Shown here in pieces: positions 3,270 through 16,330 of a stretch of DNA of 38,050 nucleotides (position 1 is its first letter; the number at the start of each line of letters is the position of its first letter). The notes below the pieces were generated by a model. That model was not told the origin of the DNA, searched no databases, and worked only from the letters and a program-made list of their open reading frames with translations. The translations under genes and the position numbers were made by a program. The DNA is taken from assembly GCA_016278265.1 (NCBI GenBank), contig JADQCE010000022.1, positions 1 through 38,050 of the forward strand. The letters are read 5' to 3'. The stretch comes from Halothiobacillus sp. (GTDB taxonomy: Bacteria > Pseudomonadota > Gammaproteobacteria > Halothiobacillales > Halothiobacillaceae).

Positions 3270-6200
3270 GAGGGCACCGGTACTGATTCAATAATTTCTG
3301 CATCATCGTCTGACAGGCCGAACGCCGCGCTCACCTGGCGCTGTAGCTGTGCCTTTGCATTATTGGCCGCGCGCTCGCGCCGTCTCCGTTCGTGGGAGGT
3401 GCGTGCTGCATCCACCGCTTTGAGTGCGCTCACCACTTTCTCGGCTTGCTGTTCGATTGCGGCCTTGGCTGCCTGATCCTGAGGAACAGGAATCGGCAAG
3501 TTTTTAATAAATTGCTTGCCGTGGGAATAATATCCACCCCTGAATACGCTGGTATTTGTGCGGATCAGCGCCTCACAAAGCGGATGGTTCAGAACGGCTA
3601 GCAGATAGAGCGTCGAGATCGGCGCGCCATCCTTGGCACGGATCATGTAATACGGGCCGTTACCGCCACCGGTGATAATCGTGTTCGTCTCATCATACGC
3701 GTAGCGCGGCTCGCGTGAGAGAACGGGCAGGATGATTTTCGGGCTGTCGAACTTCGTCAGGCTTTGCGAGCGCCCATACTGATAGAATTGCCGTTCGTCC
3801 GCCAAGCCGCCGACAACATTGCGGCCTTCGAGGGTTTCGCGCCGCGCGCTCAGATATTCCAGGCAATGCGGGTAATTGGCTGCCATTTCATCGGGCTGTA
3901 ATAGCCGGGCGCGAAGCTTGCCTTTTGGCGTGGTCACCAACTCGTAAGGGAAGATCATCCAGGCGTTGGCCACGGGCTGGCCAAACGCTTCGAGCCGTGC
4001 ATCATGAAGGCAGGGGCGAAGGATGCCACGCTCGATCTTCCATTCGCGCTCGTTCCACTCTATCCAGATATACTCATCATCGAAGCGTGTGGGGCGCAGG
4101 AAATAGATTTCATCAGCACTGGTCTGAACGCCCACCTCAATATTGGCCAGCGCTTCCAGTCTGCCCGGCACTTCGCCTTTGATCCGCGCGAAGAGTGCCC
4201 GGACATCCTCCTGGCCGAATGTCCAAGCCTCGTCACTCAGCTCTGCGGCGGGAATGGTCGAGATTACACCCGTCCGGCCATAGCGCCACTCCTCCAGCGG
4301 CCCAGCTTCCTCCACACGAACCGTCTCACAGCCAGTGTGATCCATGACAAGGATGCAGGTATAGTTGGACGTGCCTTGTCCGAAGACAGGCTTTACCCCG
4401 AAATTCACGATCTCTTCTAGAACCGGCGTGCAGGTCAGAAGGCCGCGCAGCGCCCGCCCCGAGCGTATCGTCATAAATTTATTGGGGACTATAACGCCGA
4501 CGCGGCCCTGATCTTTGACCAGCGCAAGCGAGCGCTCGATGAACAAGGCGTATTTGTCAAAATTGTCCTGCCGCGCCGTACTGTAGGGCGAGCCCGCCGC
4601 ATGGTAGAAAGCCGCCTCTTCCGGCGAGTAGGTCACCATGTTCTGAATGCGGATATAGGGCGGGTTGCCCACCACCACGTCAAAGCCACCAGCGGCCATC
4701 TCGTCAGCAAACTCGTCTTCCCAACGAAATGGATTGATCGCATCATGCAACGCCGCTGGCAGCGGTCCGCATGCGGCTTCCCATTCCTGGGTGCTGACAA
4801 GAGAATTGCCGCAGCGAATATGGCTATCGAGTTCCGGTAGCGCGGCGTGCTTCTTCCTCCGCACGTAATCCTTGAGCGCCGCCTCGCTTTCATCCTCAAT
4901 GAGCTTGAGCAGCAAACTGAACTGCGCCACTTCGACTGCGTTGGGATCGATATCGACGCCGCGCAGATGCGCTAGCAGGATGCGGCGCTTCTCATCGAAA
5001 GTCAGGCGCCAGATGTTCTCACCGGCCTGATATATTGCGGTGCCTGCATGCTTCTCCATACCGTCCGCAACATACCAATCCAGATAGTGACCGAGCAGGA
5101 AGTCGTAGGCCGAGAGCAAAAAGATGCCGGAGCCGCAGCACGTATCGGCCAGCGTGAAGGCCGCAAGCTCTTGTGGGGAGCGCCCAGCAAGGAGCGGGCC
5201 GAGAGTGCGGGCAACAATAGCATCAGCGATGAAGCTCGGAGTGGGCACCACGCCCCCACTTTCGCGAATTTCCGGCTTGCTGGTGATGGTGACAGCACCA
5301 TCCTCCACCACGATTACTTCACCGAGGAATTGCTCATAGATTTCCCCTAGCACCTCGGTTTCGACCACCGCGAAGGTGTAGGGACTGAGCGGATAATACA
5401 GCTCGGCAATGATACCTTGCAGCACATCGTCACTGATCCGTATCCCCAGCGGATCATCATCAATCAGGCGAAACAGCCCTGAATCGTAAAATTCATCCGC
5501 GCGGCGCAGGACATCCATGAGGGCATCAAAGGTGGCGCTGCCATCAAGGTTTTTGAGCGTTTCGTATTTCTCGATCTCGCGATCTTCGCAAATCCGCAGA
5601 AAGACTATGCGCGAGAGAAAAAGTTGAACCCCGTAGGTCAGCTCTTCGGAGCTGAGGTCGGGCGTGTTCTCGTGGATATCGGCGGCGAGGCGGGCGCGCC
5701 AATCACGGACTTGATTTAGAAAGAAATCGTCAAATTGCTGCGCACCATGGCGCGTCGTATCAATGGCAAAGCGCCGGTCGAACGCGCCCGAAAGCACACT
5801 TTCTTGCGAAAGCAGTGACCATAATTCATCAAACCGTGCCTCGAATTCCTCATAGCCGAACAGATGCAGTCTCGCGACATGCGCCTCGTCGGTCTCGACC
5901 GGTACCGATTTACAATCATAAATGGCGAGCTGATGAAAATTGGTAACAACCGAGATCGGCAAGCTGGCCGAATACCCGTAGCGCCGCGTCTGAAACGCAG
6001 GTGCGCGATCACGATCAATTCGGACGCTTGGCTTCTTCGCCTCAATGAAAATCTTGCGTTGGCGCGCAAGTCGAAGCTCATAATCTGGCCGCTTGGACAG
6101 CCGCTCGTCCCCCACTTCGACGGTCGCCTCTTCGATCACCTCACGGTAGATTAGCGGCAGGGCGCGCCGGTTGTGAACGTCCCATCCGAACGCTTCAAGT

Positions 6201-6379
6201 AGAGGGGTTATGAACTCGGTACGAGCCTGAGTTTCGTTGTACCCAGCATCGCGGTAATCAGCCTCGTTAAGACGGAAGCGGCGGGCCAGCTCAGCCACGC
6301 GGGCGCGGGCTTGTTCTTTCGCTTCATCACTGTGAGGCGCGGTGGGAGTTACGGTTCCGGCATGCCCATCATCACTCAT
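3266..6379 (-). CDS. Type IIG-like restriction-modification enzyme (nuclease + Eco57I-type m6A methyltransferase)
   Basis: A 1037-residue single-chain enzyme. The start at 6379 (MSDDG) is chosen because it gives an ATGA overlap with the upstream gene; a longer frame from 6466 would overlap that gene by 91 bp. N-terminal PD-(D/E)xK nuclease signature: RPDYEL (D99) followed by FIEAKK (E113, K115), as in HsdR-N domains. The middle holds methyltransferase motif I (DTCCGSGIFLL) and catalytic NPPY (572-575), typical of N6-adenine methylation. The C-terminus looks like a TaqI-type specificity region ending in QFIKNLPIPVP. Length and order match Eco57I-type enzymes (about 1000 residues), which cut outside their site and methylate one strand. 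The separate methyltransferase just upstream is the expected companion. It is probably a cytoplasmic restriction enzyme against foreign DNA; specificity is not predictable. Confidence 0.88.
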   Translation of the reverse strand: MSDDGHAGTVTPTAPHSDEAKEQARARVAELARRFRLNEADYRDAGYNETQARTEFITPLLEAFGWDVHNRRALPLIYREVIEEATVEVGDERLSKRPDYELRLARQRKIFIEAKKPSVRIDRDRAPAFQTRRYGYSASLPISVVTNFHQLAIYDCKSVPVETDEAHVARLHLFGYEEFEARFDELWSLLSQESVLSGAFDRRFAIDTTRHGAQQFDDFFLNQVRDWRARLAADIHENTPDLSSEELTYGVQLFLSRIVFLRICEDREIEKYETLKNLDGSATFDALMDVLRRADEFYDSGLFRLIDDDPLGIRISDDVLQGIIAELYYPLSPYTFAVVETEVLGEIYEQFLGEVIVVEDGAVTITSKPEIRESGGVVPTPSFIADAIVARTLGPLLAGRSPQELAAFTLADTCCGSGIFLLSAYDFLLGHYLDWYVADGMEKHAGTAIYQAGENIWRLTFDEKRRILLAHLRGVDIDPNAVEVAQFSLLLKLIEDESEAALKDYVRRKKHAALPELDSHIRCGNSLVSTQEWEAACGPLPAALHDAINPFRWEDEFADEMAAGGFDVVVGNPPYIRIQNMVTYSPEEAAFYHAAGSPYSTARQDNFDKYALFIERSLALVKDQGRVGVIVPNKFMTIRSGRALRGLLTCTPVLEEIVNFGVKPVFGQGTSNYTCILVMDHTGCETVRVEEAGPLEEWRYGRTGVISTIPAAELSDEAWTFGQEDVRALFARIKGEVPGRLEALANIEVGVQTSADEIYFLRPTRFDDEYIWIEWNEREWKIERGILRPCLHDARLEAFGQPVANAWMIFPYELVTTPKGKLRARLLQPDEMAANYPHCLEYLSARRETLEGRNVVGGLADERQFYQYGRSQSLTKFDSPKIILPVLSREPRYAYDETNTIITGGGNGPYYMIRAKDGAPISTLYLLAVLNHPLCEALIRTNTSVFRGGYYSHGKQFIKNLPIPVPQDQAAKAAIEQQAEKVVSALKAVDAARTSHERRRRERAANNAKAQLQRQVSAAFGLSDDDAEIIESVPVPS

Positions 6380-8133
6380 CCCTGGCTCCGCGTTTTCTTC
6401 CCGGCGCGGCGGCGTCCAAGCCGCCGGTTTCGCATCTTCTCCCAGATGCCGCGCAGCATTGCGCATTCGGCTTTTGAGAGTCCGACTTGCTGCATCAAGA
6501 TGCGGCGGTTGTTCTCTTCGAGCACGGTCTCAAGCCGCCCGGCGCGGATCAATGCGTCGCATTCTTCGAGCGGCAGGGCATGGCCAAGTGTCGCTGGCAT
6601 AAGCAGCTTTTCTGCTTCGGTCGGCTCCAGTTCCAAAACGCCGCCGCCATAGCTGCGTCCTTCGATTTCTGCCGATGCCGCCGTCATATAGCTGTAACTA
6701 TTGGCGACAATGGTACGCGGATCAACGCCGTGGCTTCGCATCCGGTGAATCGTATCGGTTGCCGTCGCTTCGGCCTCATTGAGAACGATGCGAGGAAAGT
6801 CGTAAATCTGGCGGAAAACAAAAGCATCCGGCACGTAGACAGACGGCACTGCGTACCAAGGTGTACGCACCGAGCACTTATAACCCTTATGCACATCCTG
6901 GCTTTCGCCAAGCCGGATATAGCTTGCAAGCGCGCCTTTGGGTTTCGTGCCGTTGATTGGTGCGAGATGCAAAAGATGCACCCGCTGATCCTCAGCGGCG
7001 AGCATCCGCCAACCGTCGCTATCAACCGTCGCGCCTTCCAGATGGGCAGAACGCCCAATCAGCGGCATCGTATAGCCTTGCAGGCCAAGTTCCTCGACCT
7101 CGCTTTCGCGCAGGACAAAAAACTGGTTTTTCCCCGTCACAACCCCGACATTCACCGAAGCATATTTGCCCAGCTCAGTCGTGCTCCCACCGGCACGTAG
7201 CGCGCGCATGAAGGAAATCTCTTCGGCGTTTAGGAAATATTTCAGCCATTTCTCGCTGTCATGGCAGACCGTTTTGGGGGATGCGCCGCGCAACACCTCG
7301 CGCGGTGTGTGCTTGACGATATCGGCGACCGAGTCGCTTTCCGTCAGATTGACCTTGCACGGATTGCTCGCCGAAGGCGCAGGGCGCGCTTCATCAGCGA
7401 GCAGGAGCAGCACTTCCTGCTCAGCTTTCTCGAAGAACAACTCGTTGCAGGCAATGAGATCGACGCGACCAAACCGGTCGGTCAAAAACGAGCGTAATTG
7501 CGCCGCGTAACTTACCTGCAAAAGCTCGGCGGGAAGCACGAGCGCCATGCGCCCGCCTTCCTTGAGCGCCGCTGCCGCTGCAACAACAAAGGGAACCCAG
7601 ATATTTGTCAGGCGGTTTGGCGAGAGCCCTTGCTCATGCATGATGTCCATCGCCCGGCTGCGATGGGGCTCCGGAAAGCTCTGATAGCGAATGAAGGGCG
7701 GATTGCCGACCACCACATCAAATTCTGGACGGTCCGGGCGGCTCCACCACGCAAAAAAATCGCTGTTCACGACAACATCATCAGCGCGCATGCCCAGGCC
7801 ATCCTTGAGACGCATGCGGGCTTTATCAGCCTCATCCGGTATAATTTCTATTCCGCGCAAACGGTTCGCACGGGCTGGGCCTTTTGCGCCTAACGCTTCG
7901 AGGCGCGCACTTGCTGCCTCAAGGAAGGAGCCGTCGCCGCAACTCGGCTCAAGCACTATCTCTCTTGCATCGCGAATTGCCCAAGCGCAAAGCCAGCGCG
8001 CCAACTCACCAGAGGTATAGTAGCCGCCGCGCAGCTTGTCGGCGTCAAGTTTGGTAAAGCGTCCACTATGGGTCCGATCGGGCGTTTCCTTTGCCAAGGA
8101 ATCGACCGCAATGCCGCTCGTATGCTCGTTCAT
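6376..8133 (-). CDS. Eco57I-family N6-adenine DNA methyltransferase
   Basis: A 585-residue class I SAM-dependent methyltransferase. Seen: GGYYTS (36-41), the typical entry motif of this family; motif I LEPSCGDGSF (61-70) for SAM binding; catalytic NPPF (144-147), which marks amino-methylation of adenine; and a long C-terminal half likely to hold the target recognition domain. There is no nuclease motif. Its size is close to M.Eco57I (about 540 residues), the companion methylase of a type IIG enzyme, and the next gene encodes just such an enzyme. It overlaps the regulator gene upstream and the type IIG gene downstream by 4 nt each (ATGA), which implies translational coupling. Inferred role: protects the host genome at the site cut by the downstream protein. 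Confidence 0.88.
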   Translation of the reverse strand: MNEHTSGIAVDSLAKETPDRTHSGRFTKLDADKLRGGYYTSGELARWLCAWAIRDAREIVLEPSCGDGSFLEAASARLEALGAKGPARANRLRGIEIIPDEADKARMRLKDGLGMRADDVVVNSDFFAWWSRPDRPEFDVVVGNPPFIRYQSFPEPHRSRAMDIMHEQGLSPNRLTNIWVPFVVAAAAALKEGGRMALVLPAELLQVSYAAQLRSFLTDRFGRVDLIACNELFFEKAEQEVLLLLADEARPAPSASNPCKVNLTESDSVADIVKHTPREVLRGASPKTVCHDSEKWLKYFLNAEEISFMRALRAGGSTTELGKYASVNVGVVTGKNQFFVLRESEVEELGLQGYTMPLIGRSAHLEGATVDSDGWRMLAAEDQRVHLLHLAPINGTKPKGALASYIRLGESQDVHKGYKCSVRTPWYAVPSVYVPDAFVFRQIYDFPRIVLNEAEATATDTIHRMRSHGVDPRTIVANSYSYMTAASAEIEGRSYGGGVLELEPTEAEKLLMPATLGHALPLEECDALIRAGRLETVLEENNRRILMQQVGLSKAECAMLRGIWEKMRNRRLGRRRAGKKTRSQG

Positions 8134-8333
8134 CGGTCATGCCCCACTCGGAACAAAGGCTGTTCATCGCGAAGCAGGCGTTCGATTGCCTCCCGGACCA
8201 CCCAAGCCACAGAGACTTTGTTCTTCTCTGCTATTTCTGTCAGCTCCGTGTGCTGCGCTTCGGTTAAGCTGACCGAAAGGCGGTGTGACGCTTTGGGCGG
8301 GATCTTCTTTTTGACGATTGGCGGCATGGTCAT
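8130..8333 (-). CDS. Ribbon-helix-helix (CopG-like) regulator of the defence operon
   Basis: A 67-residue protein with the pattern SHRLSVSLTEAQHTELTEIAEKNKVSVAWVVREAIERLL (split here as one beta strand, RLSVSL, plus two helices), which is the CopG/Arc ribbon-helix-helix fold. Two ATG codons lie close together (8333 and 8327); the upstream stretch GGGATTC suits either. It is the first gene of a four-gene minus-strand operon and its stop overlaps the methyltransferase start as ATGA. A perfect 13-nt palindrome lies 25 bp before its start and is a natural operator. Inferred: an autorepressor playing the part that C-proteins play in other restriction systems, or setting the dose of a toxic nuclease/ATPase. 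It could also be the antitoxin-like member of the operon. Confidence 0.75.
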   Translation of the reverse strand: MTMPPIVKKKIPPKASHRLSVSLTEAQHTELTEIAEKNKVSVAWVVREAIERLLRDEQPLFRVGHDR

Positions 8334-8679: not shown

Positions 8680-9339
8680 TTAGCGATCCTCCCAAGGTTT
8701 TTTCTTCGGCATCGCCGAAGTCACCTCGACCTCCCGCAGCATGCGCCCCTCGATCAGCCCGCCCCGGGTCCAGCCCAGCGCGCGCCACCAGTCGTCATAG
8801 GCGCGGCGGGCCGCCTCGATCTGGTGGGGATGCGGGGAGAATGTCACCGGGCAGGCCAGAACCTCGACGGTGCGCCACTTGCCACGGGTGAGGATGCGTT
8901 CTGTGCCGACGACGATGGTGCTGGCGCGTTCGCCATGCTGATTTTGCCGCGTTTCCACCGGCACGCACCGCGGGACGGCCGCAGGCATCCAGTCGGGCGT
9001 GAGCCCGGCGCGCGCCAGTTCGGCTACGCGGATCGCCATACGTTTTCCACCGAGGCTGTCGGGCATCCCGGCCACGGTGGCAGCGATCACCTCGGCGTCC
9101 TCGTGAGTGTAGCCGCCAATCTTGTGCTGGCCGCCATCGACCTTGCAGCCCAACGTGGCACGCTGCAGCAGGATGTATTCGAGGCCGAAGCCGAAGCCTT
9201 CCTCGGTCACGTCCCGGGGCGGTGGCAGCTCCAGCTGCGCCTTCTCGACCCGGAACGCCCATTCCAGCGCCGCCTGCACGCCCAGCGCGCGCTTGACCTT
9301 CGTGCCGCCTGCGCGGCCGATCCTGCCGTGGAAACTCAT
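8680..9339 (-). CDS. Phage-type hypothetical protein
   Basis: A 219-residue basic protein that I do not recognise at family level. It begins MSFHGRIGRAGGTKVKRALGV and has a central motif TLGCKVDGGQHKIGGYTHEDAE and a C-terminal WRALGW segment. It has no signal peptide or membrane helix. It starts 12 bp after the stop of the cytosine methyltransferase gene, with AAGGA upstream, and is the last gene of the minus-strand row 11997-8680. Small conserved proteins of this sort sit near the integrase end of Rhodobacteraceae prophages. A structural or DNA-handling role in an integrated element is likely, but its biochemical function is unknown. Confidence 0.6.
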   Translation of the reverse strand: MSFHGRIGRAGGTKVKRALGVQAALEWAFRVEKAQLELPPPRDVTEEGFGFGLEYILLQRATLGCKVDGGQHKIGGYTHEDAEVIAATVAGMPDSLGGKRMAIRVAELARAGLTPDWMPAAVPRCVPVETRQNQHGERASTIVVGTERILTRGKWRTVEVLACPVTFSPHPHQIEAARRAYDDWWRALGWTRGGLIEGRMLREVEVTSAMPKKKPWEDR

Positions 9340-9351
9340 GGCTTCAGTCCT

Positions 9352-10509
9352 TCAAGGAAATCCATTTGCGTTGGGCGCTGGGGTTGGTCCGTCGGCCGCC
9401 AGATCCAGGGGCCGGAGGCCGTGGGCAGCGCCGAGAGAGCGCCACGCATGTGCTGCTGCCAATGGATGAACTCCGTTTCCGAGCAGGCGCAGAGCGCGTG
9501 CCCGATGGGCCAGCCCATCAGCCATCCGACGAAGAGCGGGTTCAGCCGCCGCCGTGACCTCCCCTTCAGGATCCGCCGCGAGACGGCCCGCCCATGCGAA
9601 GCAATCATCGAAGCCCAGAGCGGGCGCGAGATCGGGGCGTGTCGCGAGGACCGCCGCCCATCCCGCGTGATCGGCGGGGCCGGGCGGGTGAAGCCCTGTT
9701 CCGCTCGGTAGTGCAGGATATCCATCCGACTCTTGCCGTCCGTGCGGGTGATGCTCGCCTTTGAGCTGCCCTTCCAGTTCTGCGCCGCTGGCGTCGGCCA
9801 TTGCGCCGCCTGTGCCGGCAGGGGCGGCGTCCCGCCCGAACCGTAGCTCTGACCCGGCCCACCCTTCGCGCCATCGGTGGCTTTCGGCGTCGACCAGCTG
9901 GCGATGCCCAGCGCCAGCGCCTCGGCCTTGCGGGTAAAGTCGCTGTTCCCCGCCCGGTTGTAGCCGACCGTGCCGGGATGCAGGCTCATCGGTGTGGGCC
10001 AGGATGAAGATCCGCAGCCGCAGGTGCGGCGCACCGACTTCTGCCGCGCTGAACAGACCCGCCGCAGGCGTGTAGCCCATTGCCCAAAGCTTTCGCAGCA
10101 CGGCCTCGAGCCCGAGGGTGACGTGACCGGGGACGTTTTCGAGGAACACCCATTCAGGGGCGCACTCCCGGATGACGCGGGCAACGTCAGGCCAGAGGTG
10201 TCGGGGGTCGCCCGTGCCGCCGCGCTTTCCGGCGGCGCTGAAGGGCTGGCAGGGATATCCGGCGAGGACGGTATCGAAGGCCCCGCGGAAGGGCCGGGCG
10301 TCGAAGCTGCGCAGGTCGTCCCAGATCGGGGCCGGGGCGAAATACCCCACGCGCTGGGCGGCGATGAGCACAGAGCGGGGCCAGTCCTCCCATTCAACGA
10401 AGCACCGGGTGTGGTATCCGGGCTCGGCGAGCATGAGGCCCATATCCAGGCCTCCGCCGCCTGCGCAGAGGCTGAGCCCGTGCCGGGGGCGTGACACCAT
10501 GCCATTCAC
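9352..10509 (-). CDS. C5-cytosine DNA methyltransferase (Dcm-like, phage-encoded)
   Basis: A 385-residue m5C methyltransferase. Seen: motif I LSLCAGGGGLDMGL (12-25) for SAM binding; motif IV GYPCQPF with the catalytic Cys87; motif VI ENVPG; motif VIII RLRIF; and motif X near the C-terminus (LGNGVHPLAAAHAW). The region between VIII and X, the recognition domain, is rich in low-complexity Gly/Ala. The start is GTG at 10509, giving a 4-nt GTGA overlap with the upstream gene; ATG at 10500 is the alternative. No cognate endonuclease lies beside it, so it is probably an orphan phage methylase that shields the element from host restriction. A frame of similar length on the same strand (9336-10505) is a shadow with Ser/Pro-rich, non-protein-like composition. 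Confidence 0.9.
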   Translation of the reverse strand: MNGMVSRPRHGLSLCAGGGGLDMGLMLAEPGYHTRCFVEWEDWPRSVLIAAQRVGYFAPAPIWDDLRSFDARPFRGAFDTVLAGYPCQPFSAAGKRGGTGDPRHLWPDVARVIRECAPEWVFLENVPGHVTLGLEAVLRKLWAMGYTPAAGLFSAAEVGAPHLRLRIFILAHTDEPASRHGRLQPGGEQRLYPQGRGAGAGHRQLVDAESHRWREGWAGSELRFGRDAAPAGTGGAMADASGAELEGQLKGEHHPHGRQESDGYPALPSGTGLHPPGPADHAGWAAVLATRPDLAPALGFDDCFAWAGRLAADPEGEVTAAAEPALRRMADGLAHRARALRLLGNGVHPLAAAHAWRSLGAAHGLRPLDLAADGPTPAPNANGFP

Positions 10510-11489
10510 CGCACCCCGCGCTCACGCAGGCGCTCCGGTGTGACCAGTCCCCGCGCCAGCATTGCCTCGCACATGGCGTTGCTGATCATGCTGGAGGGGA
10601 GGAACTTGTCGGAGTTGACGAGGTCGGCGTAGAAGGCCGCGAGCTCGTCGTCGCTGGCTCTGGGGCCATCGTCGCGCTTGCGGCGCCGGCTCTCGCCGCT
10701 TCCGGTGACTGATCCCCTTGCCGTAACCGGCGCGCCGGTCTGCTTCAGGCGCTGGGCGGCCCGTTGCATGGCGCGGTCGAGCGCCTTGGGCCCATCCGGC
10801 GGCTCCGGGTGATCGCGGCGCGAGGCCTCGGCCACGGTGAGGATCGCCTCCTCGTCGAGGCCCAGATCGTCGCGCCAGCGCCGGACATGCTCGCGCGGCG
10901 GCCAGCCCTGCCACCAGCCGGGCAGGGTTGCGTGGGCGGCAAAGCCCAGCGCGCCGAGCAGTTCCGCAAAGAACCGATCGAAATCGGATTCGCGAACTCG
11001 CGCGTCCTCCTCCTCCTTTACAGGTTTACTTAGAGGTTCCCTTACAAGGTTAGTCTCCGGAATCCGGAGATGGCTTTGGGCAAAATCCGGAGATGGCTTT
11101 GCCGGAAATCCGGAGATGGCTCCATGTCCGAATTCCGGAGTTGGGTCGCTGTCCTGTTCGCTCTCCGTTCCGGCAATCCCATCTCCGGTTTCCGGAACTG
11201 GCTCTTGTGGAAGGCCATCCTCGAACCCCAGGATGTAGCGAGTGGCCTGGCGCTTGTGGGTGCGCGGATCATGGCTGCGCACGCGGTGGATCAGGCGCAA
11301 CTCCTCGAGCCTGGCGAGGTGGTCGTTCAGTGCAGAGACCGACATTTCCGCGTCGTCCGCCAGCCGCGCCTGTGTCGGGAAACAGCCGAAATCCGGGTTA
11401 TGCCGGTCGCACAGAAACCACAGCACGATCTTGGTGGCGGGCTTCAGCCCGCGCTGCTTGATGGCCCAGTTTGTGGCGTCGTGGCTCAT
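10506..11489 (-). CDS. Winged-helix replication-initiator-like protein of an integrated element
   Basis: A 327-residue protein. The start at 11489 (MSHDATNW) is preferred over 11522 because GGAGGG lies just upstream. Residues about 5-95 form a helix-turn-helix_36-type winged helix: KIVLWFLCDRHNPDFGCFPTQ, then LADDAEMSVSALNDHLARL and a basic wing. The rest is a linker rich in acidic and polar residues and a C-terminal domain that includes LPGWWQGWPPREHVRRW. This layout (N-terminal winged helix, flexible middle) is that of phage O-type replication proteins. The linker-coding DNA carries 23-bp direct repeats, as the lambda O gene carries its own origin iterons. It is coupled to the cytosine methyltransferase gene by GTGA. 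Inferred: initiator of element replication. A plain transcription factor is the alternative. Confidence 0.62.
   Translation of the reverse strand: MSHDATNWAIKQRGLKPATKIVLWFLCDRHNPDFGCFPTQARLADDAEMSVSALNDHLARLEELRLIHRVRSHDPRTHKRQATRYILGFEDGLPQEPVPETGDGIAGTESEQDSDPTPEFGHGAISGFPAKPSPDFAQSHLRIPETNLVREPLSKPVKEEEDARVRESDFDRFFAELLGALGFAAHATLPGWWQGWPPREHVRRWRDDLGLDEEAILTVAEASRRDHPEPPDGPKALDRAMQRAAQRLKQTGAPVTARGSVTGSGESRRRKRDDGPRASDDELAAFYADLVNSDKFLPSSMISNAMCEAMLARGLVTPERLRERGVR
11061..11146. repeat. 23-bp direct repeats inside the replication-like gene (candidate iterons/origin)
   Basis: The core TCCGGAGATGGCT (plus strand) starts at 11063, 11086 and 11109, an exact 23-bp period, followed by a degenerate copy TCCGGAGTTGGGT at 11134 and another, TCCGGAACTGGCT, at 11191. 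Each core holds the palindrome TCCGGA. As 23 is not a multiple of three, each copy is read in a different frame, so selection for a protein repeat cannot explain it; a DNA-binding array can. Placement inside an initiator-like gene recalls the lambda origin. Confidence 0.6.
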
Positions 11490-11997
11490 GGCGCGGCCCT
11501 CCGCGCTGATTGAGGGCGGCATCGATCACGCCGAGAACCCGTGGATCATATTGTGCGCGCGGTCCCGGGCGGCATGCGTGGCCCCTGGCCTCCAGCACCG
11601 CCTCGGCATCCACCTCGGCGCGCCGCGCGAGTGGCGCCGGCATTGTGGCCAGGAGCCGGTTGCGCAGCGAGGTGAGGGCGACAACCTCGGTCAACGCCCC
11701 GTCGCGTTCCGCACGCCGGATGCCCATGTCGAGCGCCGACAACTCGCTGTCGCGAAGGCCCTGCAGGTGCAGCAGGCGATGGTCGCTCAGCTGCCACCAC
11801 TTGCGCCGATCCCGGTCGGTGTAGGTCTCCACCAGCGGAAACAGCTCTTCGAGCGCGCGGGTCATGCGCTGCGCGGTGCGCAAGTTCACGCCGAAGATCT
11901 CGGTGATCTGCACAAGGCTGATACCGCCCGGCCGGGCCGCGGCCTCTTCGGCCAGGCGCATGAGTTTGAGGGCTTTCCCGAGGCGCTTGTTGTCCAT
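11398..11997 (-). CDS. HTH regulator of the WYL/YafY type, lacking the WYL domain
   Basis: A 199-residue protein starting at 11997 (MDNKRLGKALKLMRLAEEAAARPGG), with GGGATGGG upstream. The N-terminal winged helix (ISLVQITEIFGVNLRTAQRMTRALEEL) is typical of DeoR/YafY-type WYL regulators, and the following helical region (LSALDMGIRRAERDG...LTSLRNRLLATMP) matches the linker of that family. The frame then reads AALNQRGG and runs into the start of the next gene in another phase. The WYL ligand-sensing and C-terminal domains, another 120 or so residues in full-length members, are therefore missing. About 90 bp at the 3' end overlap the replication-like gene. It may be a naturally short phage regulator or a truncation by deletion. 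The gene is divergent from 12269-12865, and a dyad lies between them. Confidence 0.6.
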   Translation of the reverse strand: MDNKRLGKALKLMRLAEEAAARPGGISLVQITEIFGVNLRTAQRMTRALEELFPLVETYTDRDRRKWWQLSDHRLLHLQGLRDSELSALDMGIRRAERDGALTEVVALTSLRNRLLATMPAPLARRAEVDAEAVLEARGHACRPGPRAQYDPRVLGVIDAALNQRGGPRHEPRRHKLGHQAARAEARHQDRAVVSVRPA

Positions 11998-12056
11998 GAC
12001 CCATCCCTGACCGAATCTGACAGGGACGTTAACGACCACTCTCCTGAAAAGCGAGT

Positions 12057-12074
12057 AGCTGATTCTGATCAGCT
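12057..12074. promoter_or_regulatory. Dyad AGCTGAT-N4-ATCAGCT, candidate operator
   Basis: Perfect 7-bp inverted repeats with a 4-bp centre (TCTG) lie 60 bp upstream of the WYL-type regulator start (11997, minus strand) and within the 271-bp gap shared with the divergent gene at 12269. The location suits an operator controlling both directions. No promoter elements with good consensus were recognised nearby. Confidence 0.4.
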
Positions 12075-12268
12075 CAGGCCGATTCCATCTTGCGTGTTTC
12101 AGATCACCGGGGGCATCTCGCCCGGCTCTCCGGACATGCATGATGATGTCGCCTTGAGGCGTGTTTCTGGCCCGCGATCCTGGTTGCAAGTGGCGGTGTC
12201 GGAACGCGCCGCCTGTGATGCCCGTCGCTGACCCGGGGGTCGCCGATTGACGAGAGGATGCACATTCC

Positions 12269-12865
12269 ATGAACCTGCCACCCAGAGTCTTCTATTCCCT
12301 GACCGAGATTTCCGCACGCTGGGGCTGTCCCGCGGCCGATGTGGCCGGATGGGCCGCGGCCGATCATCTGTCGCTGGTCACCAGCATCGCTGCGGTGTTC
12401 TGCGGCAAGCTGCCGGTGGCGGGGATCGTGGCGGTGAGCGCCGCCGACATGATGCGCATGTTCCGCCGCCATGGGCCAAGCGAGGAAGAGTGCCGGGTGT
12501 TTCGCATTCGACTGCCGGGCAGCACCGAGTGGCAATACATCACCGACCCGCCAGACGGCGTGCTGATCAAGCTGACCGACCTGATGCTGATGGCCGACGA
12601 GGTGCACCGGTTCGAGGATGACCGCGATTTGCTGCGCCGCCCGGCATTGTCGCCCGGCGCTGTGCCTCGCTATGACTGGGACGCGGTCAATATCATGCTG
12701 TTTCAGAGGATCAACGACCGTGGTCTGCCCGCGACGCAGGGTGAGTTGATCAGCGAAGTGCAGGACTGGTTTGCGCAGAATTCGCCAACGGGCGAGATCC
12801 CGGAGGAGAGCACCACGCGCAAGAGGATCGCGCCGATCTGGCGGGCGCTGCGGGAGAAGGACTGA
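12269..12865 (+). CDS. Hypothetical protein next to integrase
   Basis: A 198-residue soluble protein of no family I can name. It begins MNLPPRVFYSLTEISARWGC, which looks like a small helix-turn-helix/excisionase-like segment (a 'tei a.rwgc...dv..w' pattern, as in MerR/Xis-type domains). A central region follows (VFRIRLPGSTEWQYITDPPDG), then a conserved-looking C-terminal helix with ESTTRKRIAPIWRALR. A GAGAGG stretch precedes the start. It converges with the integrase gene 35 bp downstream. In Rhodobacteraceae elements such a gene often sits beside the integrase. A role in excision control is possible, but this is inference. Confidence 0.55.
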   Translation: MNLPPRVFYSLTEISARWGCPAADVAGWAAADHLSLVTSIAAVFCGKLPVAGIVAVSAADMMRMFRRHGPSEEECRVFRIRLPGSTEWQYITDPPDGVLIKLTDLMLMADEVHRFEDDRDLLRRPALSPGAVPRYDWDAVNIMLFQRINDRGLPATQGELISEVQDWFAQNSPTGEIPEESTTRKRIAPIWRALREKD

Positions 12866-12900
12866 GGGCTCGAGAGGAAGGGGGCACCGGTGTGGCCCGG

Positions 12901-14157
12901 TCAGGCGCCTTTCCGGTCCTGCCCGGCATCGTGCACCAGTTGCGGGCGGGGCCGGAAGATGCTGGCAACGGTATTGACCCCCTCGCGCAGCGGGGAATCC
13001 ATCAGGTGCGCATAGCGCTGTGTCGTCTGCATCTGCGTATGGCCCAGCAGCTTGCCGATCATCTCGAGCGAGGCGCCGCCGCTCACCAGCAGGGATGCGA
13101 AAGTGTGCCGCAGATCGTGGATCCTCACCCCGGGCAGGTCGGCCTCTTTCTGGATGGCGATCCAGAACCGGCGGATTTCCTGCACCGGCTGGCCGGGGGT
13201 GTCGCCGGGAAATAGCCACGGATTGCCGCGTGGCACCACAAGCTGGCGCTGACGCACGATGGCCGCAACCTCGTTTGAGATCGGGATGCGGTGGATCTTG
13301 CGCTGCTTGGTGGTGGCCGCGGGTTTTGACCAGCTGCCGAGGTCGAGGTTGAACTGCTCGAACCGGGCCTGTCGCACCTCACCCACCCGCGCGCCGGTCA
13401 GCATGCAGAGCCGTATGATCCCGGCTGCGCGCTGATCGCTGGCCGCATCCAGCGCCTTGGCCAGCCGGCGAATTTCCTCGGGCGTCAGAAAGCGCTCACG
13501 CTCGGTCTCGACCCGCCGGCGAAAGCCGCTGGCGGGGTTGTCACTGCGCCAGCCCCAGTCGATCGCCAGCGACAACATCTTGCGCAGCACCTCACCCACC
13601 CGGTTGGCGCGCACCGGCGTGGGCTTTGGTCCCTGCAGCTTGCGGGCCCGGTTGTTGGGTTTGGCCTTCGAGGGGCGCGCGCGGCCAGCGGCGATCTTGT
13701 TCAGCAGCTTTTCGACATCGGCCCTGGTGATCTCGGTCACCAGCCTGTTGCCCCAATCGGGCGCCACCAGCTTGTGCATGATCGTATGATGATCGGACGC
13801 GTTCCGCGGCGCGAGATTCGGCGTGTGTTCTTTCAGATAGCGCTCGATCATGTCGCTGACCCTTGGCGCCTCGCGCGCCGACTCGCGCAGGCTCAGCGGG
13901 TCGATCCCCTCGTCGATGTCGCGCCGCAGCTCTTTCGCCCGCTCCCGCGCGGCCACCGTACTCCATTCCGGCCAGCGTCCGATGGTCATCCGCCGCTGCC
14001 GTCCGCCAAACCGGTAATCGAGCGTGAAAGCCCGGTTCCCCGAGGTGTAGATGGTGATCGAGAACCCCCGCACATCGGTGTCGAAGATCTGGTAGTCCCG
14101 CCCCAGCTTCTCGGCCTCGCGGACGGTTTTCTCATTCAGTTTCAGCCTGTTGGCCAT
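12901..14157 (-). CDS. Tyrosine site-specific integrase (prophage/island type)
   Basis: A 418-residue tyrosine recombinase of the class that integrates at tRNA genes. Seen: an N-terminal DUF4102-like arm-binding domain (VRGFSITIYTSGNRAFTLDYRF...MTIGRW), a core-binding SAM-like domain in the middle, and a catalytic domain with Arg in TGARVGEVR, H347-x-x-R350 in HDLRHTF, His373 in LLGHTQ and nucleophile Tyr382 in TTQRYAHL. All catalytic residues are present, so the enzyme may be active. Reading is leftward, and a candidate att region in an initiator tRNA-Met remnant lies 2.5 kb to the right. The gene begins close to a 110-bp inverted-repeat element. Inferred: catalyses insertion and excision of the element spanning at least 8680-14157. 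Confidence 0.93.
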   Translation of the reverse strand: MANRLKLNEKTVREAEKLGRDYQIFDTDVRGFSITIYTSGNRAFTLDYRFGGRQRRMTIGRWPEWSTVAARERAKELRRDIDEGIDPLSLRESAREAPRVSDMIERYLKEHTPNLAPRNASDHHTIMHKLVAPDWGNRLVTEITRADVEKLLNKIAAGRARPSKAKPNNRARKLQGPKPTPVRANRVGEVLRKMLSLAIDWGWRSDNPASGFRRRVETERERFLTPEEIRRLAKALDAASDQRAAGIIRLCMLTGARVGEVRQARFEQFNLDLGSWSKPAATTKQRKIHRIPISNEVAAIVRQRQLVVPRGNPWLFPGDTPGQPVQEIRRFWIAIQKEADLPGVRIHDLRHTFASLLVSGGASLEMIGKLLGHTQMQTTQRYAHLMDSPLREGVNTVASIFRPRPQLVHDAGQDRKGA

Positions 14158-14261
14158 GTATCGCTCCCCATTGCTCGTCCCGTCATGAGGCGCGGATTCG
14201 CGCCCATATCAAGCAAAGCATGGCGACCGGACCGGAATGCAGGCGGAGACCGGAATTGGGG

Positions 14262-14371
14262 GGCTTTGTGGATGGCATGGATGCTCTCTCCTTCTGTGAT
14301 GCCTTCAACAAACATCACGTTGGCACATTACGATGCCGTCGGGAGGGGGCATCCATGCCATCAACAAAGCC
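14262..14371. mobile_element. 110-bp inverted-repeat element (MITE-like)
   Basis: The ends are 23-bp inverted repeats with one mismatch: GGCTTTGTGGATGGCATGG.. at 14262-14284 and its complement at 14349-14371. The GGCTTTGTT-type tip resembles ends of IS5/IS427-group insertion sequences. The centre has no gene; it contains a smaller hairpin (GTGATG...CATCAC) and the string TGGCACATTACGATGCCGTCGGG, which recurs in altered form at 24149-24172. No clear target duplication is seen. It lies between the integrase promoter and the 3' end of the LuxR-type gene, where the hairpin could also act as a transcription boundary. Confidence 0.5.
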
Positions 14372-14382
14372 GTAGCGAACGC

Positions 14383-14979
14383 TCACCTCCCCGTTTCGCA
14401 CTCGACAGCGATACCGGACATCAACTCCTCGACGAGGAAAGCGGTCAGCTGTTGACGGGTGGTCAGCCCGGATTTACGGAACACGGCATTCAACTGGGTC
14501 TTGATGGTTGAGGCCGATTTGCCACGAAGATCGGCAATTTCCCGATTTGAAAACCCTTTCATCGCCAGGATTGCCACGGTCCGCTCCGAGGACGACAGAT
14601 TCCACCCGTCGAACAGCCGATCCATGTGAGATTGGAAATTTCCGGAAACCACCTCGATCTGCTGCCCCAGCGCATTCACCTGCTGGCGGCTGTGCCGAAG
14701 GAACAGGCCGCTCGTGATGACCCCAACGACCATACCCAGGCTGGCGAGCGTCTGGATATATTCCTGATAGACCCATGGAATGGGCCAGGTTCGCAGTCCC
14801 AGAACCTCTGACCAAAGGGCGCCCAGGAAGAAGACCGCGCTGAGGAATTGCACGATCAGCGCGGCATAGAGGAGGATGACGCGCAACGGCTTTGCCCCGA
14901 GAGACGAGGCAAGCGCCATGTCGACCTTCCGGATCGGGCCGTGGGGGCGCTGCGGATGGTTTTCAGCCAGATCAGTCAT
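14383..14979 (-). CDS. Membrane-anchored LuxR-type transcriptional regulator
   Basis: A 198-residue protein if it starts at 14979 (MTDLAEN), which overlaps the preceding gene's stop by 8 nt; the frame is open to 15066 but that would run deep into the neighbour. Two hydrophobic helices (VILLYAALIVQFLSAVFFLGALW and TLASLGMVVGVITSGLFL) form a hairpin membrane anchor. A short coiled region follows (QQVNALGQQIEVV), then a LuxR/GerE helix-turn-helix (LSSSERTVAILAMKGFSNREIADLRGKS...TQLNAVFRKSGL). No sensor domain is visible, so it may sense the membrane state or work with the two exported proteins encoded upstream. Family is clear; target genes are unknown. Confidence 0.8.
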   Translation of the reverse strand: MTDLAENHPQRPHGPIRKVDMALASSLGAKPLRVILLYAALIVQFLSAVFFLGALWSEVLGLRTWPIPWVYQEYIQTLASLGMVVGVITSGLFLRHSRQQVNALGQQIEVVSGNFQSHMDRLFDGWNLSSSERTVAILAMKGFSNREIADLRGKSASTIKTQLNAVFRKSGLTTRQQLTAFLVEELMSGIAVECETGR

Positions 14980-15478
14980 CGCCGCCCAGCCCCACGGATC
15001 CGCTGACCGACCCGCCTGTGGAAACCGAGCCGGCCCCGACATCGACATCCGCGCCAATATCCGCATCCGCGCCGGCAGGAGAATCCTCCGTGCCGGATAC
15101 GCTCTCGGAGTTTCGAGAGGTCATATCGGACGAGGCGTCATCCCTTCCTCCGGCCGTGTCGTCGGAAAAGGTCTCGATGATGGCATCGCGCTTGATTTCG
15201 CCGGTCGAACTGCTGACGATCACTTCGCGCAGTCGTGTCGCATCACGCGCGAGAATCCGGTACCTGCCGAGAAAGGTTCGCGTCACTTTCGTGACATTGT
15301 AGCCGTCTTCTTCAAGGGATTTGATAACATCGACATAAAGCGCGTCGGCCAGCCGAACCGACGCGCTTTCGTTCCCCGATGCCTCGGCGTTGTTTGCCTG
15401 AGCCGATACGGGCGCGGAAAGTGCGACTGCAGTCAAGACGACGGCAGCTGCGGCGGATATGTTCCTGCAATGCGTCAT
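14972..15478 (-). CDS. Exported PepSY-like protein with acidic Gly/Ser tail
   Basis: A 168-residue protein with a good signal peptide (MTHCRNISAAAAVVLTAVAL... cleaved near VSA-QA) and GGAAGGAG upstream. Residues about 45-100 (LYVDVIKSLEEDGYNVTKVTRTFLGRYRILARDATRLREVIVSSSTGEIKRD, given in parts) have the size and pattern of a PepSY-type beta-alpha domain. The last 60 residues are low-complexity Asp/Gly/Ser/Ala. It is coupled to the LuxR-type gene by an 8-nt overlap. Its signal peptide and upstream DNA resemble those of the next exported protein at 15650-16186, so the two are likely co-regulated. Probably periplasmic; it may modulate the membrane regulator, but function is not established. Confidence 0.7.
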   Translation of the reverse strand: MTHCRNISAAAAVVLTAVALSAPVSAQANNAEASGNESASVRLADALYVDVIKSLEEDGYNVTKVTRTFLGRYRILARDATRLREVIVSSSTGEIKRDAIIETFSDDTAGGRDDASSDMTSRNSESVSGTEDSPAGADADIGADVDVGAGSVSTGGSVSGSVGLGGDD

Positions 15479-15592
15479 CCCGGTCTCCTTCCTTTCTCAT
15501 ATTCCTTGCCCAGGGAACAAGTTTGCTGCGCGGCAATCCGCGCATATGCAGGATGATAATGCCTCGACTGCAATATCGGCAAATGAAGGGTG

Positions 15593-15616
15593 CCTGCGCC
15601 CAAAAAAGGGCGCAGG
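15593..15616. terminator. Hairpin CCTGCGCCC-A6-GGGCGCAGG between two exported-protein genes
   Basis: A perfect 9-bp stem with an A6 loop (T6 on the minus strand) lies 34 bp after the stop of the 178-residue exported protein (minus strand) and upstream of the next gene. No T-tract follows the stem on either strand, so it may be an intrinsic terminator of poor type or an mRNA end-stabilising hairpin. Confidence 0.45.
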
Positions 15617-15649
15617 AATGCTCGCAATCGTTCAGCGCGGGAGGATGAA

Positions 15650-16186
15650 TCAGGCGCTTTCTTCGACGACGATCATGATATCATTGTCGGACTTCGCGGC
15701 AACGCCGACTACATCGCCCGCGGTGTAGCCCTTCGCCTTCATCGCCGCTGTCAATCCGGCATTGGCCTCGATGGCCTGGCGCACCGCGTCAATCGAGGAT
15801 TTCTGGTCGGTCAGGGCTTTTTCAACCTTGCGCGCACTTGCCTTCGATCCCGCCTTCAGGTCGGCGAGCGTCACGATGCTGAACCGTGTCCGGTTGTCTG
15901 TGTCGACAATGGAGGCACGAACATCAGCCATGGCGTCATCCGAAGCATTCAAGCTCGACACCACCGACCCGACGGTGATTTTTCCGGTTTTTGCAGCCGC
16001 GTCGGCCGTGGTTCCGGCAGAGGCGTCTGCGCCCTGTTTGGTCCCGGAGCCGGCGTTCGTGCTTGCCTCGACACTCGCATCAACAGAGATACCGACGCCC
16101 GCAGCCGGCGCGGACACCGGCACGGCGAGGCTGAAGGCCGCCAGGGCTACGATACTTGCTGCGGATATGTGCTTTCGATGGGTCAT
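15650..16186 (-). CDS. Exported alanine/aspartate-rich hypothetical protein
   Basis: A 178-residue protein starting at 16186 with GAAAGGAG seven bases upstream; the longer open frame to 16504 has no ribosome site and is not used. The signal peptide MTHRKHISAASIVALAAFSL is near-identical in plan to that of the protein encoded at 14972-15478. The mature part is Ala/Ser/Thr/Asp rich, with a helical centre (VGSVVSSLNASDDAMADVRASI and FSIVTLADLKAGS) and a C-terminal domain ending SDNDIMIVVEESA. It is probably periplasmic. The pair plus the membrane LuxR protein forms a small co-oriented group. No known family was recognised. Confidence 0.65.
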   Translation of the reverse strand: MTHRKHISAASIVALAAFSLAVPVSAPAAGVGISVDASVEASTNAGSGTKQGADASAGTTADAAAKTGKITVGSVVSSLNASDDAMADVRASIVDTDNRTRFSIVTLADLKAGSKASARKVEKALTDQKSSIDAVRQAIEANAGLTAAMKAKGYTAGDVVGVAAKSDNDIMIVVEESA

Positions 16187-16330
16187 TGCGATCTCCTTTC
16201 GGTCAGATATTCGTTGCCGACGGAACCGGGTGCCCCGCGACAATCTGCGGAAAAGAAAGGCAGGATGGGCCGGTCCGCCCATCGCCCATTCGGGTGAAAA
16301 GCGCCCGTTCACCCGTTTGGTCGACCCGTC

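Follow-up and report, generated by a model that had tools for sequence, protein, structure and literature searches.

A putative lambda O-type replication initiator gene with a predicted phage origin in its own middle, in a probable prophage remnant of Halothiobacillus sp.

We analysed a 38,050-nucleotide stretch of contig JADQCE010000022.1 from Halothiobacillus sp. (the window). The minus-strand gene at 10506..11489 is very probably a phage replication initiator of the lambda O type that has the phage origin in its own middle, and its product would bind its own gene and melt the block adjacent to the binding sites. Both an iteron array and an AT-rich block lie inside the gene, and the repeats and the block are under selection at the DNA level. 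The origin most likely works like that of lambda O, as a member of this type without a recognised neighbouring P gene.

The initiator open reading frame spans 10506-11522 on the minus strand and encodes 338 amino acids. The start codon is probably the ATG at 11489, since the alignment of 63 homologues is invariant from M12, and we delimited the O-like initiator gene by this alignment and by its matches to HTH_36 and phrog_345. The protein matched Pfam HTH_36 with an E value of 6.3e-12. Its best PHROG match was phrog_345, 'replication initiation O-like' (E 3.9e-25), and phrog_391 was also matched (E 6.4e-14), which assigns it by sequence to the O-like family. Similarity to Pfam MarR_2 (E 4.5e-5) was under the curated cut-off, and a search of NCBIfam gave no match and thus no curated transcription-factor equivalog. 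A reading made from the sequence alone had named an ordinary regulator as the outcome that would overturn it, and the O-like PHROG match together with the empty NCBIfam search speaks against that outcome.

In the AlphaFold2 model (mean pLDDT 74.6), the protein has a winged-helix DNA-binding domain (wHTH; residues 12-100, 11223..11489), a disordered linker encoded by the repeat region (residues 112-161, 11040..11189), and a helical C-terminal region (residues 169-338, 10509..11018), all encoded on the minus strand. The pLDDT of the linker was below 50 at residues 112-144 and 149-161. The structural matches over residues 11-103 were winged-helix proteins, and among them were 4pql and 4pt7, which we take to be structures of staphylococcal-type plasmid RepA initiators. 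By analogy, the C-terminal region is presumed to recruit the replication machinery. The best PDB match of the whole model was DnaD (E 2.4e-3), but the C-terminal model alone had no fold match in the PDB at E<=0.001 (best E 4.0). The DnaD match was absent there, and a DnaD-like C-terminal helicase loader is therefore not put forward here. A sequence search of solved structures with the initiator gave no match above noise (best E 0.083).

The 13-mer AATCCGGAGATGG occurs at 11061, 11084, and 11107, that is in 23-bp steps, and nowhere else in the window on either strand. In coding sense it reads CCATCTCCGGATT, and the three copies are iteron core 1 (11107..11119), core 2 (11084..11096), and core 3 (11061..11073), all on the minus strand. 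Core 3 adjoins the AT-rich block and is part of a dyad at 11054-11070, TCTCCGGAATCCGGAGA. Beyond the three exact iterons, further steps of 25 bp and 57 bp lead to two degenerate copies, which are likewise dyads. These are the second dyad (11122..11144, CCAACTCCGGAATTCGGACATGG in coding sense) and the outer dyad (11179..11201, CCAGTTCCGGAAACCGGAGATGG in coding sense), both on the minus strand. The three iterons lie in three different codon phases and encode different peptides.

Two null models were used, 1000 shuffles that preserved both the protein and the codon usage and 1000 shuffles of the codon order. Three copies of any 13-mer were found in 0/1000 of the former and 0/1000 of the latter. 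Moreover, the best 36-nt match at a lag of 23 was 32, compared with shuffle maxima of 28 and 22. The sequence-only reading had described three copies of exact 23-bp period and two degenerate ones, and both the sequence and the shuffles confirmed them. It had placed them out of phase with the codons, where a winged-helix gene encodes its linker; as in the lambda type of origin, the array of dyad iterons does lie in DNA that encodes the AlphaFold2 linker of residues 112-161, here with one exact copy per reading frame. Its interval of 11061-11204 needs to be extended: the repeats are there, but the feature runs on into the AT-rich block at 11014-11051, outside that interval. No exact DnaA box (TTWTNCACA) was found in 10201-11900.

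The AT-rich block (11014..11051, minus strand) consists of three 12-bp repeats, and its 12-bp period, its stability, a codon test, and its conservation point to an unwinding element. This 38-bp block is the least stable site of the module at 8704-14261, with the minimum at 11016. Only 5 of the 5520 38-nt windows in the module were less stable than the block, and all of them were its neighbours.

To place the gene among its relatives, we collected loci by tblastn and pattern searches, keeping the best 80 of 94 viral-contig loci and the best 80 of 175 bacterial-genome loci. Among the matches listed, the relatives were mostly from Rhodobacterales. The 161 loci, including our own, gave 156 full-length open genes (L081 and truncated genes were omitted), and the 143 distinct ones were aligned. 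A regex anchor was present in 141 of the 143, and 114 genes remained after thinning and were used for trees. By regex, the block lies right after the array in 141/143 distinct relatives, and the two that the regex missed (L088 and L135) have the array too when inspected by eye. Three iterons of one sequence class were found in 130/141 genes and two of three in another 10, while L123 was intermediate. The upstream dyads were near-perfect in both arms in 131/141 genes, and a dyad was present at the block-proximal copy in 136/141 (classes summed). Synonymous conservation, measured in 15-codon windows across the 143 distinct genes, showed an excess of 0.41-0.54 in windows over residues 126-175, against 0.05-0.36 in the others, and the protein sequence of the linker is among the less conserved parts of the initiator. 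The comparison of orthologues that had been proposed as a check therefore came out in favour of the repeats, which are not absent but keep fixed 23-bp steps and the same position in the gene, with more synonymous conservation and less protein conservation.

The gene-wide AT maximum is at the block in 135/141 relatives. Among these relatives, valine is encoded by GTA in 288/288 block codons but in only 2.6% of 1864 codons elsewhere in the gene. Serine is AGT in 99% of 104 block codons compared with 3.3% elsewhere, and arginine is AGG or AGA in 99% of 180 block codons compared with 5% elsewhere. GTT is as AT-rich as GTA, yet GTA is always used, and thus it is the sequence of the block that is conserved. 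We also examined 18 initiators whose wHTH identity was below 62% (mean 45%). The block was present in 17 of them; the block pattern itself had served to collect as many as six, which leaves an unbiased count of 11/12. In these divergent initiators, the block valine was GTA in 36/36 codons compared with 21/227 elsewhere.

The sequence-only reading had compared the arrangement with the lambda O gene and its internal origin, and the layout bears this out. As with lambda O and ori-lambda, the initiator gene is of the wHTH type and has the origin, here a predicted one, in its middle, and dyad iterons about 20-24 bp apart are followed by an AT-rich tract directly beside them. A lambda control with the same script gave the annotated O iterons at nt 349, 369, 393, and 416 and the AT maximum at nt 438; counting from the ATG at 11489, we find iteron starts at nt 371, 394, and 417 here, and the block starts at nt 439. 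The lambda repeat was the weaker of the two by shuffle test, with 2/300 shuffles reaching it compared with 0/300 here. The two systems also differ. The iteron and AT-block sequences are not those of lambda, and in place of lambda's plain A-rich tract the block is a defined 12-bp repeat. The C-terminal region here is without a recognised fold match. The gene next to the initiator is not P but a cytosine methyltransferase (in pRA03 also a DNA methyltransferase), and in 8704-14261 we recognised neither a P gene nor a gene for another helicase loader (8704-9339 was searched by Pfam and NCBIfam only).

Which part of the protein reads the iterons was approached by scoring iteron classes against the alignment columns, including the C-terminal part where it was filled. 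Among the 25 columns most informative on iteron class, 23 were residues 50-93, the other two were residues 15 and 41, and none was C-terminal. The residues that follow iteron class are those expected to touch DNA: residues 62 and 67 in the predicted recognition helix (residues 62-74, 11301..11339, minus strand) track the class, and residues 82-93 in the predicted wing, a loop (residues 82-94, 11241..11279, minus strand), are among the most informative columns. In a first set of 128 distinct helix-iteron rows, Arg62 occurred with GTC in 101/101, and Val or Ile at position 62 occurred with [TA][CT]TCC, which has TCC without the G, in 27/27. Arg67 was found with GTC[TGC]CA in 10/10 rows, and the motif was found without Arg67 in 0/118. 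A second set of 71 later rows is not a blind test, since the motif classes were defined after both sets had been viewed; there Arg62 occurred with GTC in 40/41, and Val, Ile, or Leu (one Pro) at 62 with [TA][CT]TCC in 14/16, the Val62 rows L378 and L379 being exceptions that carry other iterons. Arg62 and Arg67 together went with GTC[TGC]CA in 17/18 rows of this second set, and 0/46 rows lacking Arg67 had the motif. It was missing in 8/25 Arg67 rows, six of which have Glu62 with ACCGGAC-type iterons and two of which are L303 and L304. From this co-variation we infer that the initiator binds the iterons through its wHTH, and an arginine-guanine contact would be the chemical reading of the match.

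Trees of the 114 thinned genes showed that recombination moves the wHTH and the iterons as a unit relative to the C-terminal domain. Iteron class changed 4 times on the wHTH tree, where 4 is the minimum, versus 28 times on the C-terminal tree. On the C-terminal tree, residues 60, 62, and 93 followed the class in 8/8 supported independent pairs (p 0.0078). Thus, the wHTH and the iterons travel together. Linkage by itself could in part explain this co-transfer. When the helix was masked, the wHTH tree had 1 supported independent switch (6-7 were unsupported), and beyond this one switch no independent origins of the helix-iteron match could be demonstrated with support within that tree.

We propose that origin function involves three steps. 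Through the N-terminal winged helix, copies of the initiator would bind the dyads and the three iterons at their 23-bp spacing, as the co-variation suggests. The assembled complex might then strain and open the adjoining 38-bp AT-rich block of 12-bp repeats, which is consistent with the position, stability, and conservation of the block. By analogy, the C-terminal region may deliver the replicative helicase of the host, or the loader of that helicase, to the opened strand. Recombination swaps the binding domain and its sites together and leaves the C-terminal domain, as the tree comparison showed, because the binding domain and the sites are contiguous.

The genes around the initiator resemble those of the plasmid prophage of Roseicitreum antarcticum pRA03, where the order is integrase, phrog_13283 protein, WYL regulator, small HTH protein, hypothetical protein, nuclease, initiator, and methyltransferase, followed by terminase and capsid genes. 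In the window, profile matches identified a tyrosine integrase (12901..14157, minus strand) and, directly downstream of the initiator, a DNA cytosine-5 methyltransferase (9352..10509, minus strand). A protein of unknown function (12269..12865, plus strand) matched phrog_13283 over its whole length (E 1.8e-79); it adjoins the integrase on the opposite strand and has the same place in pRA03. Just upstream of the initiator, comparison with pRA03 and the relative L082 revealed the junction of a deletion of about 1.7 kb (11510..11522). This deletion between the WYL regulator and the initiator also took the small HTH protein, the hypothetical gene, and a VRR-NUC-like nuclease. As a result, the WYL-type regulator ORF is truncated (11398..11997, minus strand; its relatives in L082 and pRA03 are full-length), and the initiator keeps its own ATG. 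From 8704 leftwards to the contig end there is restriction-modification cargo. The defence genes at 642-8333 include a type IIG restriction-methylation fusion (PDLC03604, E 2.6e-271), a type II methyltransferase (PDLC03267), a PDC-S06 ATPase (PDLC04891, E 9.6e-203), and a small RHH protein. On the right, at 14262-14371, two 30-nt inverted repeats that are 90% complementary and separated by 50 nt stand in place of the final ~25 bp of the conserved prophage right end. This pair is single-copy in the assembly and looks like a MITE or an IS remnant. When the right flank (14262-16200) was compared with 40 related genomes to look for an attachment or empty site, it gave three matches only, one of them our own and two of them short. 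No structural genes were recognised in the window. The local element is likely a prophage remnant, in which the cassette looks intact.

A methyltransferase follows the initiator both here and in pRA03, and in RcBaka a DNA methylase lies two genes on. Methylation control of origin firing has been speculated for other phages, according to the available part of one report (PMC5537653).

The same repeats might instead be operators, at which the initiator or another phage regulator controls its own operon while replication starts elsewhere. The sites are dyads, the protein is a winged helix with MarR-like similarity (the sub-threshold MarR_2 match), and in iteron systems autoregulation often goes together with initiation. 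We nevertheless consider pure operators improbable: the sites are within the coding region and not at a promoter, the protein is assigned to the O-like PHROG, and a fixed, sequence-specific AT-rich block is present in 141/143 relatives and, in more divergent initiators, even beside completely different iterons. It is less credible still that the repeats are a feature of the protein, either a selected repetitive linker peptide or low-complexity drift. The linker is indeed disordered in the AlphaFold2 model, and the 12-bp period of the block means that it also encodes a tetrapeptide-like repeat. But the iterons encode different peptides in three frames, none of the protein-preserving shuffles gave three copies, synonymous sites are more conserved at the array and block than in the rest of the gene, and the codons used in the block are almost invariant. 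We reject a repeat at the protein level on these grounds.

A further alternative, which is compatible with a lambda O-type origin, is that the origin family is real but that the prophage here is decaying and its copy is a dead fossil. We regard this as a substantial possibility, a little short of evenly balanced. The regulator has been truncated by the deletion, the end of the conserved right boundary has given way to the inverted repeats, and our assembly had no match to the terminase and capsid genes of pRA03 or to PF05876, PF03354, and PF04860. Against this, the initiator ORF, the iterons, and the block are all intact, the element's left part is out of view, since window position 1 is the contig end, and one PF03237 terminase-like match was found on another contig of the assembly (G000:C6).

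Returning to the lambda O-type origin, we searched for the array and block on other C-termini. Three further queries and one profile gave 216 later loci with 60 distinct new genes. The C-terminus was similar to that of the present initiator in 29 of these and weakly similar in 3, while 28 had no blastp match at E<=1. Leaving out two of these that were too short, we examined 26. The block was present in 25/26 and a period-23 repeat upstream of it in 23/26 (at most 2/200 shuffles were as good), where many of the 26 genes are interrelated and independent cases are thus fewer. The repeat was equalled by 5 and 7 of 200 shuffles in L380 and L384, and L303, a distant member, had neither array nor block.

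Our confidence is evenly divided on a wider proposal, in which the wHTH, the iterons, and the GTAA block would form a portable origin cassette that phages have fused to different C-terminal domains. Iteron specificity would be readable from the recognition helix, with Arg62 matching the G of GTC and Arg67 the C in GTC[TGC]CA. The (AACCNGTAANNG)n block would be a constant, sequence-specific unwinding or loading element and not a mere AT tract, recognised by a common host factor or by a binder of the melted strand.

A scan for the block that was independent of the protein gave, among the matches listed, 96 overlapping matches in 80 loci. Of the listed matches, 27 were in 18 initiator-like loci, all with a best repeat period of 22-23, and 69 were in 62 loci in other ORFs of AT-rich contigs. 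The latter look like chance or NEPV-type protein repeats. The raw repeat score exceeded the 99th percentile of random spots in 2/96 listed matches, and use of the block as a general marker was thus unsupported. Two loci, L409 and L419, have initiator-like ORFs that are highly divergent (they begin with MSFDAISWAMNQ and MSFPAIAWALKQ); these contain repeats of the CCCAAATTTCC type at 22-bp spacing and share the GTAA block.

Our literature search found no report that describes iterons, or an origin inside a gene, for these alphaproteobacterial phages, and the word 'iteron' has 0 occurrences in the available portions of PMC8601537, PMC6536676, PMC10783043, and PMC5537653. If our reading is correct, the replication origin of many alphaproteobacterial temperate phages would be placed to within about 200 bp. 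It would also provide a predictive link from the recognition helix to its DNA sites, down to single residues and bases. With a constant 12-bp-repeat block beside very different iterons, the old question of whether melting depends on a specific sequence or on AT content would become testable. Moreover, exchange of the cassette would change origin specificity without rebuilding helicase recruitment, which recalls the lambda-phi80 and lambda-82 hybrids with which Furth and Yates reportedly studied origin specificity in 1978.

Similar arrangements are known from plasmids. Rep of pSK41, a staphylococcal RepA_N protein, is described in the accessible text of PMC5703833 as having an N-terminal DNA-binding domain, a central linker encoded by the origin, and a separate C-terminal domain, with four Rep boxes inside the rep gene. 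The initiator described here is alike in its N-terminal DNA-binding domain, its linker encoded by predicted origin DNA, and its separate C-terminal domain. RepA_N initiators differ in being a plasmid family of Gram-positive bacteria, and the RepA_N domain (Pfam PF06970 according to the same text, PMC5703833) was absent from the Pfam matches of the initiator up to E 0.1 and from those of the 63 homologues. RepC, the initiator of the alphaproteobacterial repABC plasmids, has the origin within its own gene, in an AT-rich region where silent changes abolish replication; in the part of the source available, RepC of p42d has no iterons (PMC3155836). In contrast to RepC of p42d, iterons are present in the initiator gene here. 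Similarity to Pfam RP-C was weak, with E 0.029 and 14.6 bits, below the curated cut-off of 24.4, and 23/63 homologues had such similarity at E<=0.1. A homologous wHTH is found in the O-like initiators of the RcBaka group of Rhodobacter phages and of Labrenzia phage vB_LagS-V1, whose genes likewise have internal repeats and the GTAA block. The iteron spacing is 24 bp in RcBaka compared with 23 bp here. In vB_LagS-V1, the tblastn match to the initiator spans residues 9-168 only, and the C-terminal part lies beyond it.
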